A stretch of DNA of 46,349 bases from an uncultured Sulfuricurvum sp. (GTDB lineage Bacteria; Campylobacterota; Campylobacteria; Campylobacterales; Sulfurimonadaceae): assembly GCA_903844635.1 (NCBI GenBank), contig CAIMUF010000072.1:1-46349 (forward strand), given 5' to 3'. How positions within the stretch are numbered: position 1 is the stretch's first letter; every line of letters begins with the position of its first letter. The notes under the pieces are model-generated. The model ran no database searches. It was not told the origin of the DNA and saw only the letters and a program-made list of their open reading frames with translations. Positions 3,661 to 32,763 of this stretch are shown here, piece after piece. Both the position numbers and the translations under genes were made by a program.

Positions 3661-5363
3661 TTTATCCAAAAGAGTTGTTACAAAAAGCAAAATTAAGAAT
3701 CAATGACAAAGACATTGGAAAGCTCCTACGACTTGCACGGCAACGGCACTATGATGATTTACTTACTGGTCACGAGCGTGGGCTATGGTACGACGAAGTA
3801 TCAGCCAATAAAACTGTAAATTTTATAGAGAATCTGAAACATACAAAAGGAATTTGGGCGGGTACAAATATCACCCTTGAAGAGTGGCAAAAAGAAGACA
3901 TTATCAAACCGATTTTTGGATGGAAAAAAAAGAATGATGATCCGCTGTCAATGGAGCGTTACCCATACGTAAGACGATTTAATGTTGCTTACAATGAAGT
4001 TGCAAGGAAGAACGGAAAATCTACCTTAGCGTCAGGCGTTGGGCTTTATCTCGCATTTGGAGACCGTGAACAAGGGGCGGAAGTTTACGCAGTAGCAACA
4101 AAAAAAGATCAAGCAAAAATCGTATGGAACGACGCGGAGCGAATGAAAAATAAATGCGGATTAAAGGGGCTTGTAAAGACCGCATATTCAACAATGACAA
4201 TGGATAAGCTCAACAGTGTGTTTAAGCCTCTTGGACGTGATAGCGATACAGAAGACGGGCTAAATGTCCATGGCGGTATAGTAGATGAGTACCATGGTCA
4301 TCCTGATAGTGGAATGTTTGACGTTCTACGTTCGGGGATGGGTTCACGGATACAACCTCTCATTATGATTATCACTACTGCAGGTTTTAGCCGGGTATCT
4401 CCTTGTTATGACGAAAGAGAATATGCAATAAAAATTCTAACCGGAGTTTTACAAAATGATAACTATTTCGTTTTCATTGCTGCACTCGATGAAAAAGATG
4501 ATCCATTCGATCCTAAAAATTGGAAGAAAGCAAATCCTAATTTAGGGGTGTCGCTCAACTATAAAGACTTTGAAGCAATGAGCCAAGAGGCGCGCGGTAA
4601 AACAACAGCTTATAATAATTTCCTCGTTAAACGGCTCAACGTATGGACTACCGCGAAAGAGCAATGGATTTCTTACGAAAAATGGGATGCTTCCGCTACA
4701 GCTCCACAAATAACGCTTGAAGATATGAAAGGAAGATCATGTTATGCAGGGCTTGACCTTTCCTCTACTACCGACTTGTCGGCATTAGTATTTATTTTTC
4801 CCAAAGAAGGTGGAGCTTTTGACGTATATTGTAAATTTTTCATGCCCGAAGATACCCTAGCAGATCGAAAAAATCAAGATAAAGTACCCTATCCTGAATG
4901 GGTAAGGGATAGTTTAATCATTGCAACTCCCGGCAACGTGATAGATTATGATTATATCGAGTCAGAAATTATAAAAATTAGCGAAATAGCAGATATAAAA
5001 GAACTTGCATTTGATAGATATAACGCTACTCAAACTACAAACAACCTCGCAAAGCATGGTATTAATGCCCTACCGTTCGGGCAAGGTACGGCACAAATGA
5101 ACGCACCAACAAAGTTAATCGAGACTCTTATACTTGGTAAAAAACTACACCATGGGGCAAATAAAGTTTTAAATTGGATGTGCTCAAACGTAGAAATAAA
5201 ATCCGATTCAGGCGGGCAAATTAAAATTTCTAAGAATGACGCACGATCTATTTATCGCGTGGATGGGATGGTATCACTAGCGATGGCTCTTGGTGCATAC
5301 TTGGCAGATACTAAAGAAGAAACATCATCCCCATACGAAAGCGGTGAGATTAGATTTATATAA
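3657..5363 (+). CDS. terL: Terminase large subunit
   Basis: This 568-residue DNA-packaging motor has an N-terminal ATPase with Walker A-like ARKNGKST (residues 116-123) and Walker B GGIVDEYHGH (Asp210, Glu211). The C-terminal RNase H-like nuclease domain begins with GLDLSSTTD (Asp367) and has a second acidic site in AFDRYNATQT (Asp453) and a third near RVDGMVSLAMA. This is the Terminase_1/HK97 type. The start codon is GTG, overlapping the terS stop. It pumps phage DNA into proheads at the portal and cuts unit-length genomes. Confidence 0.95.
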   Translation: MIYPKELLQKAKLRINDKDIGKLLRLARQRHYDDLLTGHERGLWYDEVSANKTVNFIENLKHTKGIWAGTNITLEEWQKEDIIKPIFGWKKKNDDPLSMERYPYVRRFNVAYNEVARKNGKSTLASGVGLYLAFGDREQGAEVYAVATKKDQAKIVWNDAERMKNKCGLKGLVKTAYSTMTMDKLNSVFKPLGRDSDTEDGLNVHGGIVDEYHGHPDSGMFDVLRSGMGSRIQPLIMIITTAGFSRVSPCYDEREYAIKILTGVLQNDNYFVFIAALDEKDDPFDPKNWKKANPNLGVSLNYKDFEAMSQEARGKTTAYNNFLVKRLNVWTTAKEQWISYEKWDASATAPQITLEDMKGRSCYAGLDLSSTTDLSALVFIFPKEGGAFDVYCKFFMPEDTLADRKNQDKVPYPEWVRDSLIIATPGNVIDYDYIESEIIKISEIADIKELAFDRYNATQTTNNLAKHGINALPFGQGTAQMNAPTKLIETLILGKKLHHGANKVLNWMCSNVEIKSDSGGQIKISKNDARSIYRVDGMVSLAMALGAYLADTKEETSSPYESGEIRFI

Positions 5364-5397
5364 TATAGACATAAAATCTTATAAATAATGTTTACTT
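5363..5397 (+). promoter_or_regulatory. Repeated 35-bp element, copy 1, before the portal gene
   Basis: This element starts with ATATAGACA, continues AAAATCTTATAAAT and ends TGTTTACTT. It matches 31 of 35 bases at 10230-10264, upstream of the tail tube gene. Both copies lie in the only sizeable gaps of the late region and begin at, or one base from, the upstream stop codon. A phage late promoter or RNA processing site that boosts portal/capsid and tail-tube expression is inferred. Confidence 0.45.
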
Positions 5398-9879: not shown

Positions 9880-10229
9880 GCATAGAAGCAGGACTATTTA
9901 ATCTTTTAAAAACAATTACCGCGATCGGTACGCGAATATATCCGTCAGTAATGCCACAAAATCCCATCTATCCAAACGTAGTTTATCAGCGCATCAGCTC
10001 GTTTGATGCTGGGACAATAGGCGGAACGGAAAGCCTCGACATGGGACGATTCCAAATTAAAATATATTCCCCAAACTTTGCCGATACCGTAAGCGTGTTG
10101 TCTTCTATCAAGTCGGTAATGAGTGGAAAGTCAAACAAGCTCATGCAGATGATGGATTATGAAAGCGACACAAAGCTACACGTTCAAATTATTGATTTCC
10201 AATTATCAGACGACATCGTAAACGGATAA
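9876..10229 (+). CDS. Tail completion protein (DUF3168 / gp17-like)
   Basis: This 117-residue protein matches the DUF3168 layout: an N-terminal short helix with IGTRIYPSVMPQNPIYPNVVYQ (residues about 17-38), the middle RFQIKIYSPNFADTVSVLSS, and a C-terminal strand with HVQIIDFQL. These proteins cap the head-proximal end of siphophage tails. It overlaps the preceding gene by ATGA and ends the joining operon; the next gene is preceded by a 77-base gap with a repeated regulatory element. Confidence 0.83.
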   Translation: MSIEAGLFNLLKTITAIGTRIYPSVMPQNPIYPNVVYQRISSFDAGTIGGTESLDMGRFQIKIYSPNFADTVSVLSSIKSVMSGKSNKLMQMMDYESDTKLHVQIIDFQLSDDIVNG

Positions 10230-10264
10230 ATATAGACAGAAAATCTTATAAATTCTGTTCACTT
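10230..10264 (+). promoter_or_regulatory. Repeated 35-bp element, copy 2, before the tail tube gene
   Basis: This copy differs from 5363-5397 at only four of 35 positions and begins directly after the stop of the preceding gene. It is followed by TTGACA (10263-10268) and a strong ribosome site (gaggag) before the tail tube ATG. Placement ahead of an abundantly needed structural gene supports a promoter or mRNA processing role, which is inference. Confidence 0.45.
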
Positions 10265-20715: not shown

Positions 20716-21402
20716 TTATCGTTGAATCCGTAGAATTACTTTTCCGATAATATGAAAAGTACGTTGATCTTCCGTTGGGTTATATTCCATACTCTCGAAT
20801 GATTGGTTATCGCTCAAAACCTTAATAATCATATTTCCCGCTTGCAATCGCTTTACAAGTAAAATTCCATCCCATGACAGAACATAGATACCATCACCGC
20901 TGAACTGCTCTTCAAGCTCTATAACCACGTAATCATCTTCGCGTAGTGTTGGGTTCATAGAATCACCACGAACTCGCACCGCTTGTATATTATCTAACTG
21001 TGGAAGTATTTTAAATAGCATACGATCAAGAGTTAATACCCCATTCGCTTCAACTTCAAAATGCTCAATCCCGTTAATCAACTTTGAACCGCTTGTAACT
21101 GCTGACATAATTGGAACCTTTATTGTATCGGGAGCAAGACTCCATGAAAGTCCTTGACGCTCAGTATGCCCTCCAAGTCCATTTAGGTAGTGATCTCCCT
21201 CTCCCGTAATCAAATAAACTGGGTTCAGTCTATATTTTTCAACTAAGAAGTCAATTTCTTTGCCTTCAAAGCCTTTTTTTGACGTAGTAGCTAAATATTT
21301 TATTCTACCTACTGGAACGCCCATAAATACGGCTATTTCATCATAGTTTGAGAACCCTTGAAGCCTCTTTATCATATCAAAAACATCTCTAATGTGTTCC
21401 AT
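20716..21402 (-). CDS. LexA/CI-like phage repressor with S24 peptidase domain
   Basis: This 228-residue protein has an N-terminal helix-turn-helix (residues about 18-42, NYDEIAVFMGVPVGRIKYLA) and a C-terminal S24 domain with catalytic Ser148 in RVRGDSMNPTLREDDYVVI and Lys184 in ILLVKRL. The family represses lytic genes and self-cleaves when RecA is activated. A cleavage site is not obvious (perhaps near SAVTSGS, 100-106, without the usual Ala-Gly). It is divergent from the early operon across a 148-base operator region and begins a minus-strand operon with the HIRAN and lipoprotein genes. Confidence 0.92.
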   Translation of the reverse strand: MEHIRDVFDMIKRLQGFSNYDEIAVFMGVPVGRIKYLATTSKKGFEGKEIDFLVEKYRLNPVYLITGEGDHYLNGLGGHTERQGLSWSLAPDTIKVPIMSAVTSGSKLINGIEHFEVEANGVLTLDRMLFKILPQLDNIQAVRVRGDSMNPTLREDDYVVIELEEQFSGDGIYVLSWDGILLVKRLQAGNMIIKVLSDNQSFESMEYNPTEDQRTFHIIGKVILRIQR

Positions 21403-21550
21403 TTAGCTACTCCTTAGACAAATTTATTGACTAAATACTTGACACGGTCAAAAATATTGACTATAATTTGACTGTTAGAAAGTAATATCGACTAAAAGTT
21501 AAAAACCTTTAACCATAGTTTGACCATTATATCAAAAATAAGGAGTTTTT
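21403..21550. promoter_or_regulatory. Divergent operator/promoter region with repeated TTGAC half-sites
   Basis: TTGAC occurs at 21427-21431, 21439-21443, 21457-21461, 21468-21472 and 21520-21524. An inverted GTCAA at 21447-21451 makes the dyad TTGAC-ACG-GTCAA. ATTGACTA is repeated at 21426 and 21456. These are the likely repressor sites, and several double as -35 boxes. On the minus strand, TTGACC (21452 downward) with AATAAA 17 bases on is a candidate repressor promoter. Confidence 0.6.
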
Positions 21551-21760
21551 TTGTCAATTATTGAAGTGAATAAAGAAAAAATCCTTAAAGATTACCCATC
21601 AATAAGAAGCTTTATTAAAGATTATGGGTTAACAACCCCCCATTTTTACGCGATTGTAAGCAAAAAGCAATGGGGATTTCAAGAGGGAAGTAAATCGTAT
21701 AAAGTTTTTAAGAAAATGGAAGCTGGCGGATATTTAAAACGTAATGAATGCGTGGCCTGA
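21551..21760 (+). CDS. Small early regulator, HTH-like (Cro/CII-position)
   Basis: This 69-residue protein is the first gene divergent from the repressor, where Cro or CII-like regulators lie. It starts at TTG 21551 after a good ribosome site (aggag). Residues 15-40 (IRSFIKDYGLTTPHFYAIVS) read as a helix-turn-helix. The segment EGSKSYKVFKKMEAGGYL is matched in the second small protein at 23017 (K-x-K start, EGSK box), so the two are paralogues. It probably binds the operator region, but this is inference. Confidence 0.7.
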   Translation: MSIIEVNKEKILKDYPSIRSFIKDYGLTTPHFYAIVSKKQWGFQEGSKSYKVFKKMEAGGYLKRNECVA

Positions 21761-21821
21761 GATGGTTACTAGAATAAGCACGACCCCTGAAACGGTCGCA
21801 CTAAATAAAGAAGGAACAGCA

Positions 21822-22505
21822 ATGTTACCACAAATGAATGTAATAGTAAATGAAGTTGAGGTTCACCTCGTATCGGTTGATGGAAAAGTTTTTGCAAACT
21901 CTTTGGATGTTGCGGCAGTTTTTGAGAAAAGACACGATGATGTTTTAAAAAAGATTCGTTCTTTCAGCGAAAGAGGTCTCCGCAATTTTACCGACACCTC
22001 TTATACAGATGAAAGCAATAGACAAAGTCCAATGTTTGAAATGAACCGAGATGGTTTTATTTTTCTTGTAAGTAAATTCACTGGTGCAAAAGCTGAACAA
22101 TGGCAGTTAGATTTTATCGACGCATTTAACCAAATGGAAAAATCAATTTATAAACCAGTCGTTTTAACAAATGACGAGAAGCTTGCCGTAATCGCACAAA
22201 GTACTATTGAAGTATCTTCAAGAGTTGAAACAGTAGAGCATAAAATAGTAGAGATTGAGCAAAAAATGACTGCTAACTATGCTCAACAACAAAAACTACA
22301 AAAACAAGTAAAAATTAGAGCGCATACCCTCCAAAACATTCACAATCTACCAAAAGAATATAACCGCAAATTGTATTCAGGTATTTACCGCGAAATGTAT
22401 ACCCACTTTGAAGTTCCTTCTTATAAAGATATTCCAATGGTTAAATTTGACGAAGCAGTTAATTTTATCCAATCGCTACCACTTGAACGAGTTTTAGCAG
22501 CCTAG
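21822..22505 (+). CDS. Rha-family antirepressor-like regulator
   Basis: This 227-residue protein has an N-terminal pRha domain: VFANSLDVAAVFEKRHDDVL, then MNRDGFIFLVSKFTGAKAEQW and FIDAFNQMEK (about residues 24-115). A coiled coil follows, then an ORF6C-like C-terminal region (THFEVPSYKDIPMVKFDEAV). Both are typical of phage antirepressors. I chose the ATG at 21822 because aaggaac precedes it; the frame is open from 21744, inside the previous gene. It likely counteracts the repressor or controls early genes. Confidence 0.85.
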   Translation: MLPQMNVIVNEVEVHLVSVDGKVFANSLDVAAVFEKRHDDVLKKIRSFSERGLRNFTDTSYTDESNRQSPMFEMNRDGFIFLVSKFTGAKAEQWQLDFIDAFNQMEKSIYKPVVLTNDEKLAVIAQSTIEVSSRVETVEHKIVEIEQKMTANYAQQQKLQKQVKIRAHTLQNIHNLPKEYNRKLYSGIYREMYTHFEVPSYKDIPMVKFDEAVNFIQSLPLERVLAA

Positions 22506-22524
22506 CCATACCCTCACAATCCCC

Positions 22525-22979
22525 TCTTAGGAGGTGATTAATGAGCGTAGCTCAAAGTCTATGGAGTTCATAGCGATACTATAAGTCCACCAAGTCAATG
22601 GATTAACCGCGCCGTAAAACCTCTATTAAGTTGGAGTTGTTTGCAATGGGACAATAGCGCAAAGAAAGCTTTTAATGATGCACACAGCGTTTCCGACAAA
22701 TGACGTTCAGTGTGTTTCAAAGAGAGTTTAAACCTTCAATAAACCAATATCAGAGTGTTTCTACCGATTGCTATTAGGTAGAAGTCAGCAGTTGATCGGG
22801 TGATGGTATTGGTGTATTGAGGGTTTTGAGTGGAATACGGGATTAACTGATTCATCGGTTGCAACCATAACGAACATCGGGCGACGCACTCACTACTTGA
22901 AGAAACGGACTGCTACGAACAGCCCGCAATATCCAAATTAACAAAGGAATACGAAATGATACACCAAAAACAAGAAAAA
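22525..22979 (+). repeat. Duplicated non-coding leader element, copy 1
   Basis: The stretch 22506-22955 has no credible gene. It starts with a CCTC-ttag-GAGG hairpin followed by ATGAGCG. It continues with a 51-base block (22665-22715) containing cacacagcg...gttcagtgtg. It ends with an AAACGGACTGCTACGAACAG block (from 22903) running into aattaacaaaggaatacg and a short start. All three blocks recur in order at 23248-23603. Candidate structured RNA or regulatory leader; function unknown. Confidence 0.6.
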
Positions 22980-23030
22980 AAGATTTTACCACAAAAACGA
23001 ATAAAGGTTAACAATAATGCTGAGATTTGA
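22956..23030 (+). CDS. Short peptide ORF, copy 1 (24 residues)
   Basis: An ATG with a good ribosome site (aaagga, 9 bases upstream) opens a 24-residue frame starting MIHQKQEKKILPQKR. It overlaps the start of the next small regulator (23017). The same beginning recurs at 23580 (MIHQKQEK, then LP-KR), suggesting either a real small protein or a leader peptide that couples translation to the regulator gene. No function can be named. Confidence 0.4.
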   Translation: MIHQKQEKKILPQKRIKVNNNAEI

Positions 23031-23235
23031 GATTGATAAAAAGAAAATGATGACAGATAGTGGTGGATCAGTAACTTCATTCTGTAAGAGACATGGAATT
23101 GACTATCGAACACTTACAAACATAATGGCTTCAAAGCGTAAGAGATTTGATGAAGGCAGTAAGGCGCAGTCTGTAGCTGAAAGATTGATATCTTTAGGCA
23201 TTGCAAGATGGGAAGAAACTCAAATTAGCGCATAA
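23017..23235 (+). CDS. Second small HTH-like regulator, paralogue of 21551 gene
   Basis: This 72-residue protein shares its layout with the product of 21551-21760: an EIDKKKMM start, then SVTSFCKRHGIDYRTLTNIM (helix-turn-helix-like, residues about 18-37), then FDEGSK. It likely binds DNA. It starts inside a leader-like short ORF and lies between the two copies of the duplicated non-coding element, so the element and this gene may have been duplicated together. Function inferred only. Confidence 0.65.
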   Translation: MLRFEIDKKKMMTDSGGSVTSFCKRHGIDYRTLTNIMASKRKRFDEGSKAQSVAERLISLGIARWEETQISA

Positions 23236-23247
23236 CCTCTAATAGAG

Positions 23248-23603
23248 TCCTCTCGGGAGGGCTTATATGAGCGGTTAAACGTTCAGCTTTGGCTCCATGA
23301 CGTTCATGGTAAGCCCTTTTATACTGCCCCACAAGCTAACAAGTGCAGTCAATAAAGTATCTCAATGGTTGGAACCAGTGGGGATGATACTTATAAAAGC
23401 TTTTAATGATGCACACAGCGTTTCCGACAAATGACGTTCGGTGTGTATCGCTAAAGGCTTTGAGTGTAAGAGTTGTAAAACCGTTCTATAAAACCCGTCA
23501 CAACACGCAGGGTCACTCACTGTCTTAAACGGACTGCTACGAACAGCCCGAAATATCCAAATTAACAAAGGAATACGAAATGATACACCAAAAACAAGAA
23601 AAA
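23248..23603 (+). repeat. Duplicated non-coding leader element, copy 2
   Basis: The stretch 23236-23579 has no credible gene. It repeats copy 1 in order: hairpin CCTC-tcgg-GAGG (loop differs, stem kept) with ATGAGCG, the 51-base block (23396-23446, one mismatch), and the AAACGGACTGCTACGAACAG block from 23527 followed by aattaacaaaggaatacg. Sequence between blocks has diverged. An extra inverted repeat AAGTATC...GATACTT lies upstream of the 51-base block. Confidence 0.6.
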
Positions 23604-23705
23604 CAGCGTTTACCGCTAAAACGTACCGGATTACGGATTGTTAAAAAGAAGTCAGACATAACCCACAACATCCTACATTGTGGCTCAGGGTGGATGGAAT
23701 TATGA
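23580..23705 (+). CDS. Short ORF, copy 2 (41 residues)
   Basis: This 41-residue frame begins MIHQKQEKQRLPLKR, a near copy of the peptide at 22956, and continues with a basic segment (LRIVKKKSDITHNIL). The same ribosome site (aaagga) lies 9 bases upstream. It overlaps the tiny ORF at 23702 by ATGA. The chain of overlaps leading to the methyltransferase gene supports translation. Function unknown. Confidence 0.45.
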   Translation: MIHQKQEKQRLPLKRTGLRIVKKKSDITHNILHCGSGWMEL

Positions 23706-23773
23706 AAAAGATTGAAACGATTATGAATCGGTTCGAAAACTGGATGGAAAAAATGGGAACGAGGATTTTTTGA
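23702..23773 (+). CDS. Tiny ORF coupled to the methyltransferase gene
   Basis: This 23-residue frame (starts MKKIETIMNRFENWMEK) begins within the stop of the preceding short ORF and ends one base into the methyltransferase ATG (TGATG). Such back-to-back overlaps suggest translational coupling rather than an independent function. It could be a chance frame; no family recognised. Confidence 0.35.
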   Translation: MKKIETIMNRFENWMEKMGTRIF

Positions 23774-24570
23774 TGAGCCTATTTGACGAACCACCAAAAG
23801 GGTTATCAACAATAAATCTATTCGCTGACAAAAAAACGAAATGCGAATTTTATAACGATAACTTCCAAAACTACAAACGATACGGGATAAGAAAAGCTCA
23901 ACTTGTTATCGCTGACATTCCCTATAACTTAGGGATTAACGCTTATGCAAGCTCGACAGAGTGGTACATAGACGGTGATAATAAAAAAGGTGAGAGCAAG
24001 AAGGCTGGAAAAGCTTTTTTTGGTACTGACTTTAATTTTAATATCGCTGAATATATGCACTTTTGTAGCAAACTCCTTGTTAAAGAGCCGAAAGAAACTG
24101 GTAAAGCTCCTGCAATGATCGTATTTTGTGCGTTTAACCAAATGCAAACGGTTATGGATTACGGCAAAAAATACGGGTTTAAAAATAGTTACCCCATCTT
24201 TTTTATCAAAGATTATTCCCCACAAGTTTTAAAAGCAAACATGAAAATCGTTGGAGCGACTGAGCACGCAGTTGTTTTATATCGGGAAAAACTTCCAAAG
24301 TTCAACAACAATGGAAAGATGGTTTTTAACTGGATGAAATGGAATAGTGACTCAAAGAATATCCCAAAAATTCACCCAACACAAAAGCCCGTAAATGTGC
24401 TTGCGGAATTGATACGAATATTTACCGATGAGGGCGACGTAGTGATCGACCCATGCGCGGGTAGTGGCTCAACGCTTCGAGCGTGTGCGGAACTAAACAG
24501 ACACTCATACGGCTTTGAAATATCAAGAGATATGTACAAAAAAGCTAAAAAAGAAATGTTATTACAATGA
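23773..24570 (+). CDS. Site-specific DNA methyltransferase (N4/N6 type)
   Basis: This 265-residue orphan methyltransferase has the catalytic motif IV as ADIPYNLG (residues about 47-54) before the cofactor-binding motif I VIDPCAGSGST (about 222-232), an order typical of beta-class enzymes. HPTQKP and CAELNRHSYGFEIS are further family landmarks. No partner restriction gene is nearby. In phages such enzymes usually protect DNA against host restriction. The ATG at 23773 is preferred; TTG 23770 is directly upstream. Confidence 0.92.
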   Translation: MSLFDEPPKGLSTINLFADKKTKCEFYNDNFQNYKRYGIRKAQLVIADIPYNLGINAYASSTEWYIDGDNKKGESKKAGKAFFGTDFNFNIAEYMHFCSKLLVKEPKETGKAPAMIVFCAFNQMQTVMDYGKKYGFKNSYPIFFIKDYSPQVLKANMKIVGATEHAVVLYREKLPKFNNNGKMVFNWMKWNSDSKNIPKIHPTQKPVNVLAELIRIFTDEGDVVIDPCAGSGSTLRACAELNRHSYGFEISRDMYKKAKKEMLLQ

Positions 24571-31603: not shown

Positions 31604-32671
31604 ATGATACGTCGAATCTATGAAAATCAACACGGCATTATAACATTAGATAGCGATATATTCGGAGAAAGAAAGAGACTTTCTACTGGTAAAAAGAGTG
31701 ATAAGTATCTACTCAAATATTATGAGAAGAATTTTGAAACCGAATATAAAAAACTCTATGATGAAAAGTTCAACGTTAAGCCTGATATTACCGATTTAAC
31801 ACTTCGAGAATATGGGAAAATGATCTTAGAATTAACGAGCTGTAATCGAAAGAAAAACGTTCAAACTCACGTAGAGCGTATTTTTAGATTGACTTGCGAT
31901 TTTAAGATGATGGGTAAATTGTTCGGCGATATGATGCTGAATGATATTAAACCGACTCATATCTTAATGTGGCAAAAAGATTGTGGGCTTGCGAGCCAAA
32001 CGATAGCAAGCCATAGAGTTTATATTGGAATGGTATTGCAAGCAGCAATGAATGACGATATTATCCGAAAGAATCCGGTCCCGTTGGTAAAACTGCCAAA
32101 ACGGGTTCCGGTACGTAAAAAGAACTTTTACAATGAGGATGAGATCAAAACAATCATTGGAGTTGCAAAAGGTCAGTTAAAAAATTACATTCAGTTAGCG
32201 TGTTTCACCGGATTACGCGGATCAGAACTTATCGCTTTAAGATGGAATGATATTGACTTCGACAAAAATGTTATTCGGGTTGATACTCGTATCGTTGATG
32301 GCGAAGAGGATATAACGAAATCAGGTAAAACACGATTCGTTCCTATTTTCAAGCAAGCAATGGAAGCAATAAGTAAACAGCGTATTTTTAGTGGGTTACG
32401 TGAATTCGTATTTATAGCGCATCATGGCGGATCACTTTATGATTCCGACGTAATGCAAAAAGCATTTAGAAGATTATTAGATAAGCATGAAATGGAGAGT
32501 GGAACAATTCACGATCTAAGACGCTCGTTTAATACGCTTTTGAAGCAATACGGATACCCGACTGATTGGATACTGGATATTATGGGTCACATGGACGACA
32601 AAGTAAACCGCAACCACTACACTGGGACTTTGCGCGTAGATATGACAAAATTGGATAGAATAGCATTATAA
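31604..32671 (+). CDS. int: Tyrosine-family phage integrase
   Basis: This 355-residue protein has an N-terminal arm-binding region (residues 1-60), a core-binding domain (about 62-165) and the catalytic domain. Arg205 lies in TGLRGSEL, Lys242 in SGKTRF, His303 and Arg306 in IHDLRRSF, His329 in MGHMDD and Tyr339 in NHYTG. It inserts and excises the phage at the att repeat. The att region starts immediately after its stop, and the last 56 codons are part of the repeat also found at the left end. Confidence 0.95.
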   Translation: MIRRIYENQHGIITLDSDIFGERKRLSTGKKSDKYLLKYYEKNFETEYKKLYDEKFNVKPDITDLTLREYGKMILELTSCNRKKNVQTHVERIFRLTCDFKMMGKLFGDMMLNDIKPTHILMWQKDCGLASQTIASHRVYIGMVLQAAMNDDIIRKNPVPLVKLPKRVPVRKKNFYNEDEIKTIIGVAKGQLKNYIQLACFTGLRGSELIALRWNDIDFDKNVIRVDTRIVDGEEDITKSGKTRFVPIFKQAMEAISKQRIFSGLREFVFIAHHGGSLYDSDVMQKAFRRLLDKHEMESGTIHDLRRSFNTLLKQYGYPTDWILDIMGHMDDKVNRNHYTGTLRVDMTKLDRIAL

Positions 32672-32763
32672 TAACGCATACACTATGGCAACTATATGGC
32701 AACCTTTGCCAAATAGGGGCTTAAAAGCCCACAATATAGGGCTTAACCGATATGTGATTAAAA
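32503..32763. repeat. Right att repeat (attR) with int 3' end
   Basis: This copy matches 1-261 with two mismatches. It includes the integrase C-terminal codons, two TGGCAAC heptamers (32686-32692, 32697-32703) and the dyad GGGCTTAAAAGCCC (32717-32730). After 32763 host leader sequence for fapA begins. The identity limit marks the outer edge of the exchange; the crossover core must lie inside. Confidence 0.9.

Follow-up and report, generated by a model that had tools for sequence, protein, structure and literature searches.

The window analysed here is a 46,349-nt contig of a draft genome, whose positions 1-261 repeat positions 32503-32763 at 99% identity; the repeated stretch comprises the 3' end of an integrase gene and the next ~90 nt. 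Because the repeat holds the integrase 3' end, we read the start of the contig as the attP junction of a 32,502-bp phage, which is probably present as an excised circle or in tandem within the sequenced DNA. In the early region, an S24 repressor gene on the minus strand (20716-21402) is followed by a sigma70-type promoter on the plus strand (21439..21467, TTGACA-17-TATAAT, consensus match 12/12), which lies between the divergent repressor and Cro-like genes and is the probable early rightward promoter. Further downstream are the plus-strand gene of a 69-aa Cro-like protein (21551-21760), a Rha/ORF6C antirepressor gene (21744-22505) that ends just before copy 1 of the element described below, the plus-strand gene of a 72-aa paralogue of the Cro-like protein (23017..23235; BLASTP 32% identity, E 3e-8), copy 2, two mini-ORFs, a plus-strand gene for a DpnIIB-like N6/N4 DNA methylase (23773..24570; Pfam N6_N4_Mtase, E 6e-25; annotated dpnA in phage relatives), DUF3799 and RecT. 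Within the structural region, a 36-nt intergenic repeat, AATATAGACA.AAAATCTTATAAAT (89% identical), was seen at 5362-5397 and 10229-10264; none is expected by chance, and it is possibly a late-gene regulatory site.

The element is present twice in this prophage early operon, with its parts in the same order and on the plus strand, and the copies are about 620-730 nt apart. A repeat search returned a 54-nt block (22665-22718 and 23396-23449, 96% identical) and a 97-nt block (22903-22999 and 23527-23623, 94% identical). Long repeats are few in the window, and the length and identity of these two are far above chance. Including the start of a mini-ORF, copy 1 extends over ~22519-22999 (about 480 nt) and copy 2 over ~23243-23623 (about 380 nt); the non-coding stretch of each is 340-430 nt. 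The first-pass annotation had described three blocks occurring twice in one order, and this arrangement was recovered on one strand. Its 51-base block with one mismatch is the inner part of the 54-nt repeat, its hairpin with a kept stem and a differing loop corresponds to CCUC-UUAG-GAGG (22523-22534) and CCUC-UCGG-GAGG (23249-23260), and its last block does end in a ribosome site and a peptide start, AAAGGA and then ATG at 22956 or 23580. The sequence between the blocks, which it had called diverged, can hardly be aligned between copies 1 and 2. Beyond the three blocks, we found the further conserved islands GUUCAU, GUUGGA, UUUGAGUG and CACUCACU, and an extra hairpin region of ~100 nt in copy 1 (22730-22826) that is absent from copy 2.

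The mini-ORFs of both copies begin MIHQKQEK..., behind the Shine-Dalgarno sequence AAAGGA. The mini-ORF of copy 1 encodes 24 aa (MIHQKQEKKILPQKRIKVNNNAEI, 22956..23030, plus strand), and its end overlaps the start of the HTH gene at 23017. The 41-aa mini-ORF of copy 2 (23580..23705, plus strand) overlaps by ATGA a 23-aa ORF (23702-23773), which in turn overlaps by TGATG the methylase start at 23773.

We compared the predicted folding of the element with that of shuffled sequences. The z-scores were -2.5 and -3.0 for the whole of copies 1 and 2, and -4.3 and -6.3 for their long hairpin P4, the core of which is the 54-nt block. On the plus strand, copy 1 is predicted to form the hairpins P1 (22519..22538, loop UUAG), P2 (22542..22554, UGAGC/GCUCA) and P3 (22559..22573, CUAUG/CAUAG); P4 (22662..22731) with the conserved loop UUCCGACAAAU; P5 (22730..22826), a long hairpin of 22 bp in two helices that only copy 1 has; the P6 domain (22827..22892) with the closing stem UGAGUG/CACUCA; and P7 (22906..22926, CGGaCUG/CAGcCCG), which is weak alone (z -1.1). 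The counterparts in copy 2, on the same strand, are P1 (23245..23264, loop UCGG), P2 (23268..23285, UGAGCG/CGUUCA), P3 (23295..23309, CCAUGA/UCAUGG), P4 (23387..23470), P6 (23461..23519), which has the closing stem UGAGUG/CACUCA and a 5' arm that overlaps the outermost part of P4 in the longest fold predicted for that hairpin, and P7 (23530..23550). Outside these named helices, copies 1 and 2 differ in their predicted global folds.

The stems of P1 to P3 are kept between the copies, with three pairs differing on both sides, three on one side and one P1 pair broken; P1 has two compensatory changes, one one-sided change and the pair that is broken in copy 1, the only broken one across P1-P4 and the possible pseudoknot, and P3 has one compensatory pair. 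P4 has an unchanged 5' arm, and every pair of it that differs between copies 1 and 2 (5/5) is still paired. The islands GUUGGAG of copy 1 (22630..22636, plus strand) and GUUGGAA of copy 2 (23368..23374, plus strand) are complementary to the P4 loop sequence UUCCGAC and may form a pseudoknot, in which one-sided consistent changes also occur; this putative pseudoknot and P7 comprise few pairs each. Further, UGAGUG can pair with CACUCA, and AUGAGC with GUUCAU. Each of the islands (5/5) finds a partner with which it can form 6 bp or more, which was equalled in 4/3000 shuffles; since the islands were picked after looking, we take this complementarity as supportive and attach no formal p-value to it. 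An intrinsic terminator was also considered and rejected: the hairpins are without a following U tract, and none was reported inside the copies on the plus strand.

Searches with the Rfam covariance models, including those of ROOL and GOLLD, gave no match at the gathering score and only chance-level matches at a relaxed threshold, in agreement with the first-pass remark that no known RNA family came to mind. The curated Rfam models of group I/II introns and riboswitches did not match either, and a tRNA/tmRNA scan returned nothing. Elsewhere in the host genome, no additional copy of the element was found. When the element was compared by BLAST with genomes of the genus and the order, phages and plasmids, only its own phage rose above background, and searches for exact patterns in viral and genome contigs returned either nothing or matches that their context marked as coding and due to chance. 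The first-pass annotation had also pointed to a covariance search and to further copies in related phages. In the former, our P4 model matched only the two known copies among 200 relatives, and it gave one borderline match (G513, E 0.034, 22.8 bits) in 175 genomes of another family. As to the latter, exact copies were not found, but one candidate homologue was obtained from the same genus.

This candidate was reached by means of a profile built from both Cro-like paralogues, which led to a phage in genome G013 (locus L116). Its gene order is the same, with repressor, Cro-like and Rha genes and then a structured non-coding part before a Shine-Dalgarno sequence and ATG (4449-4771). Positions 4677-4741 align with the P6 domain of copy 1, with 36 of about 52 interior columns identical (69%), and the flanking stem pairs are different in 6/6 cases and all Watson-Crick in both sequences. 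Because the sequence similarity alone is not significant, the weight of the candidate lies in synteny and in the exact position of the compensated stem. After the P6 domain it likewise has a short hairpin, a Shine-Dalgarno sequence and ATG, whereas the other blocks are unrecognisable and the downstream gene is different. The L116 leader looks like a third, if weak, member of the element. Copy 2 retains the P6 stem, not the P6 interior. A P6 model, built from copy 1 and L116 themselves, found no others above background in 160 related genomes and 37 loci, and a P6 likeness noticed at another locus, L067, was not confirmed by it. In-frame tandem repeats, GCTCATGCCAACACAAGCGGAAACGAA, were observed in an early phage gene at L116:5060-5415 and at the start of contig C67 (L068); they code for a repeat of the ANTSGNEAH type.

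We favour the view, at a probability of roughly 0.55, that the element, in both its copies, is a structured leader RNA that acts in cis, an intercistronic 5' UTR in the rightward early operon. This reading draws on the folding z-scores, the paired islands, the compensatory changes, the position directly before a start codon, the overlapping ORFs behind each copy, the candidate homologue, the similarly placed leaders of other phages described below, and the lack of a coding frame common to the blocks and of an Rfam match. A structured RNA or cis-regulatory leader acting on small downstream genes had been proposed from the first inspection, and it is still the best reading; support for the structure from outside this phage comes from the one candidate homologue in the same genus only. 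Read-through from the promoter at 21439-21467 would produce an RNA in which each element folds into P1-P3, the long hairpin P4 with its possible loop-GUUGGA pseudoknot, P6 and P7, leaving the A-rich Shine-Dalgarno sequence and the ATG free just 3' of the structure. Copy 1 would then set expression of the cassette behind it, most likely at the translation start of the mini-ORF overlapping the HTH gene, and copy 2 would do so, most likely at the translation start of the ORF chain leading to the methylase. As the ORFs overlap in a chain, translation of the cassette is probably coupled to the element-controlled start. Stems of at least 20 bp are plausible RNase III targets, and processing at the long stems may be a second step; an effect on elongation would also be possible. 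The duplicates are best viewed as a plug-in leader that would move together with cassettes of early genes, and the element probably helps to control the timing or strength of early phage gene expression.

A different role for a cis RNA would be that of a put-like processive antiterminator, in which the nascent RNA binds RNA polymerase and lets it pass terminators down the early operon. In HK022, the early operons contain a structured cis RNA in two similar versions, putL and putR (PMC9378689). The window's phage, also temperate, likewise has two copies in its early region, downstream of an early promoter and before different genes, and phages of the same order have a ~180-nt structured domain at a promoter-like site with any gene following. 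However, put measures ~70 nt and has two stem-loops, whereas the element measures 340-430 nt and has six or more helices. The two put sites lie in opposite operons, whereas the window's copies share a single operon and follow the promoter at about 1.05 and 1.8 kb; copy 1, on the promoter's strand, is further away than putR (about 270 nt; PMC9378689). No clear excess of terminators is seen downstream, and we regard this role as unlikely. In a search for lambda nut boxA/boxB, no boxA-like match was found on the plus strand inside the copies, and the matches in the window were not clearly above chance.

It also seems quite unlikely that the blocks are simply tracts or boundaries kept by recombination, left by a segmental duplication with mosaic exchange and having no RNA function. 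Blocks almost identical beside unalignable neighbours, no further copies at the sequence level, and copies that flank a small cassette, as is typical of modular exchange, would all fit such a history. The near-identical blocks reach 76/77 nt between the copies, which exceeds what structure needs and matches the expectation after recombination between the copies, and could partly reflect it. Nevertheless, complementary islands and compensatory changes are found in the diverged parts, the L116 candidate keeps P6 with all six pairs replaced, and the copies fold better than shuffles.

A trans-acting non-coding RNA cut from the early transcript, like ROOL, GOLLD or immunity RNAs, is improbable in our view. 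Large ornate phage RNAs of unknown function do exist (PMC12286853), and the element, with its size, its elaborate structure, a conserved loop left unpaired and a possible pairing of that loop, recalls the large, elaborately folded ROOL and GOLLD with their loop-loop contacts. But Rfam gives no match, an own promoter or terminator is not evident, and the most conserved block runs via the ribosome site into the ORF, which fits a cis role; the element is also shorter and tied to a start codon, whereas ROOL and GOLLD are linked to tRNA islands. Finally, that the conserved blocks are coding through an unusual frame or recoding is highly improbable and was rejected: one frame across the 54-nt block gives KAFNDAHSVSDK and then a stop in both copies and is open for ~45-50 codons upstream, but a shared start codon is absent, the residues upstream of KAFNDAHSVSDK are unconserved, a stop breaks the 97-nt block in copy 2, no start occurs in that block ahead of the mini-ORF, the short peptides are without a family match, and among all frames read no open frame with a common start spans the blocks of both copies, which upholds the label "non-coding" given at first pass.

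In kind, the element is akin to cis RNAs already known from phages (put, nut, ESAS), and it matches no catalogued family. The ESAS of cluster K mycobacteriophages consists of a 13-bp consensus and 17-bp inverted repeats and occurs in many copies (PMC3203893); like the element, it is a repeated non-coding sequence immediately upstream of the starts of small phage genes of different families, with an inverted repeat that encloses a variable spacer. The 13-bp SAS/ESAS sequence GGGATAGGAGCCC had 4 matches with 3 mismatches vs 3.5 expected, none of them in the element.

Similarly placed leaders were found in other phages. In the Fusobacterium phages Funu2 (L049:3500-4180), FNU4 (L050:4500-5130) and a relative (L033:4385-4990), a stretch of 600-800 nt lies between the Cro-like gene and methylase or replication genes; it is strongly folded (z -9.4 for L033 and -7.1 for FNU4) and not in Rfam. 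A long hairpin closes the stretch, and its tip can pair with the small hairpin that follows, over 7, 14 and 10 nt in the three phages; the contact covaries, with different sequences each time. These leaders share with the element an end formed by a hairpin and a Shine-Dalgarno sequence, and conserved end blocks around a variable middle, but their loop pairs with a downstream hairpin, whereas that of the window's element pairs with an upstream island. A motif, CCGACA-N-UGA, common to the element and a Fusobacterium phage hairpin loop was dropped because it has too few bases and covariation is seen in the other loops there. When the element was aligned overall with the leaders from Fusobacterium or Campylobacterota, no sequence homology reached significance. 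In the G173 group, genomes that belong to the host's order, a promoter-like site marks the start of a ~180-nt domain, and the genes behind it differ from phage to phage; six pairs of the domain's hairpin differ between sequences and are still paired in 8/8 full-length sequences, a difference that is probably a single ancestral swap. We regard the Fusobacterium and G173-group leaders, all Rfam-negative, as analogues of the window's element.

It is a tentative possibility that temperate phages of Campylobacterota and Fusobacteria have in common a class of leader RNAs, large, modular and so far undescribed, in their early operons. Just as tentatively, such a class might be marked by long hairpins and loop-loop or loop-island pairing, stand before varied cassettes and act purely at the RNA level in controlling early expression; the window's phage would carry two members. 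Large structured early-operon leaders of phages are a blind spot: Rfam has no entry for any of the examples described here, and across unrelated sequence families they sit at one recurring genomic position, flanked by lysogeny control on one side and replication or early genes on the other. Should they work as RNA, they would be new switches of antitermination, translation start or RNA processing at the lysis-lysogeny decision, and the natural duplicate in one phage together with the covarying loop contacts opens the way to direct mutational tests.

A promoter-proximal structured leader of ~180 nt before various cassettes was also observed at L070:3189-3650 (minus strand), L069, L071, L072, L096-L098, L101 and L102. 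At ~2150-2270 of the oriented locus L101, the sequence directly behind the structured leader is tRNA-like (GGCGGACG...CGTCCGCC, including an arm similar to GGTTCGACTCC); ARAGORN did not call a tRNA gene there. Leaders of the L070 type have a second long hairpin module, which contains the Shine-Dalgarno sequence of the next gene.
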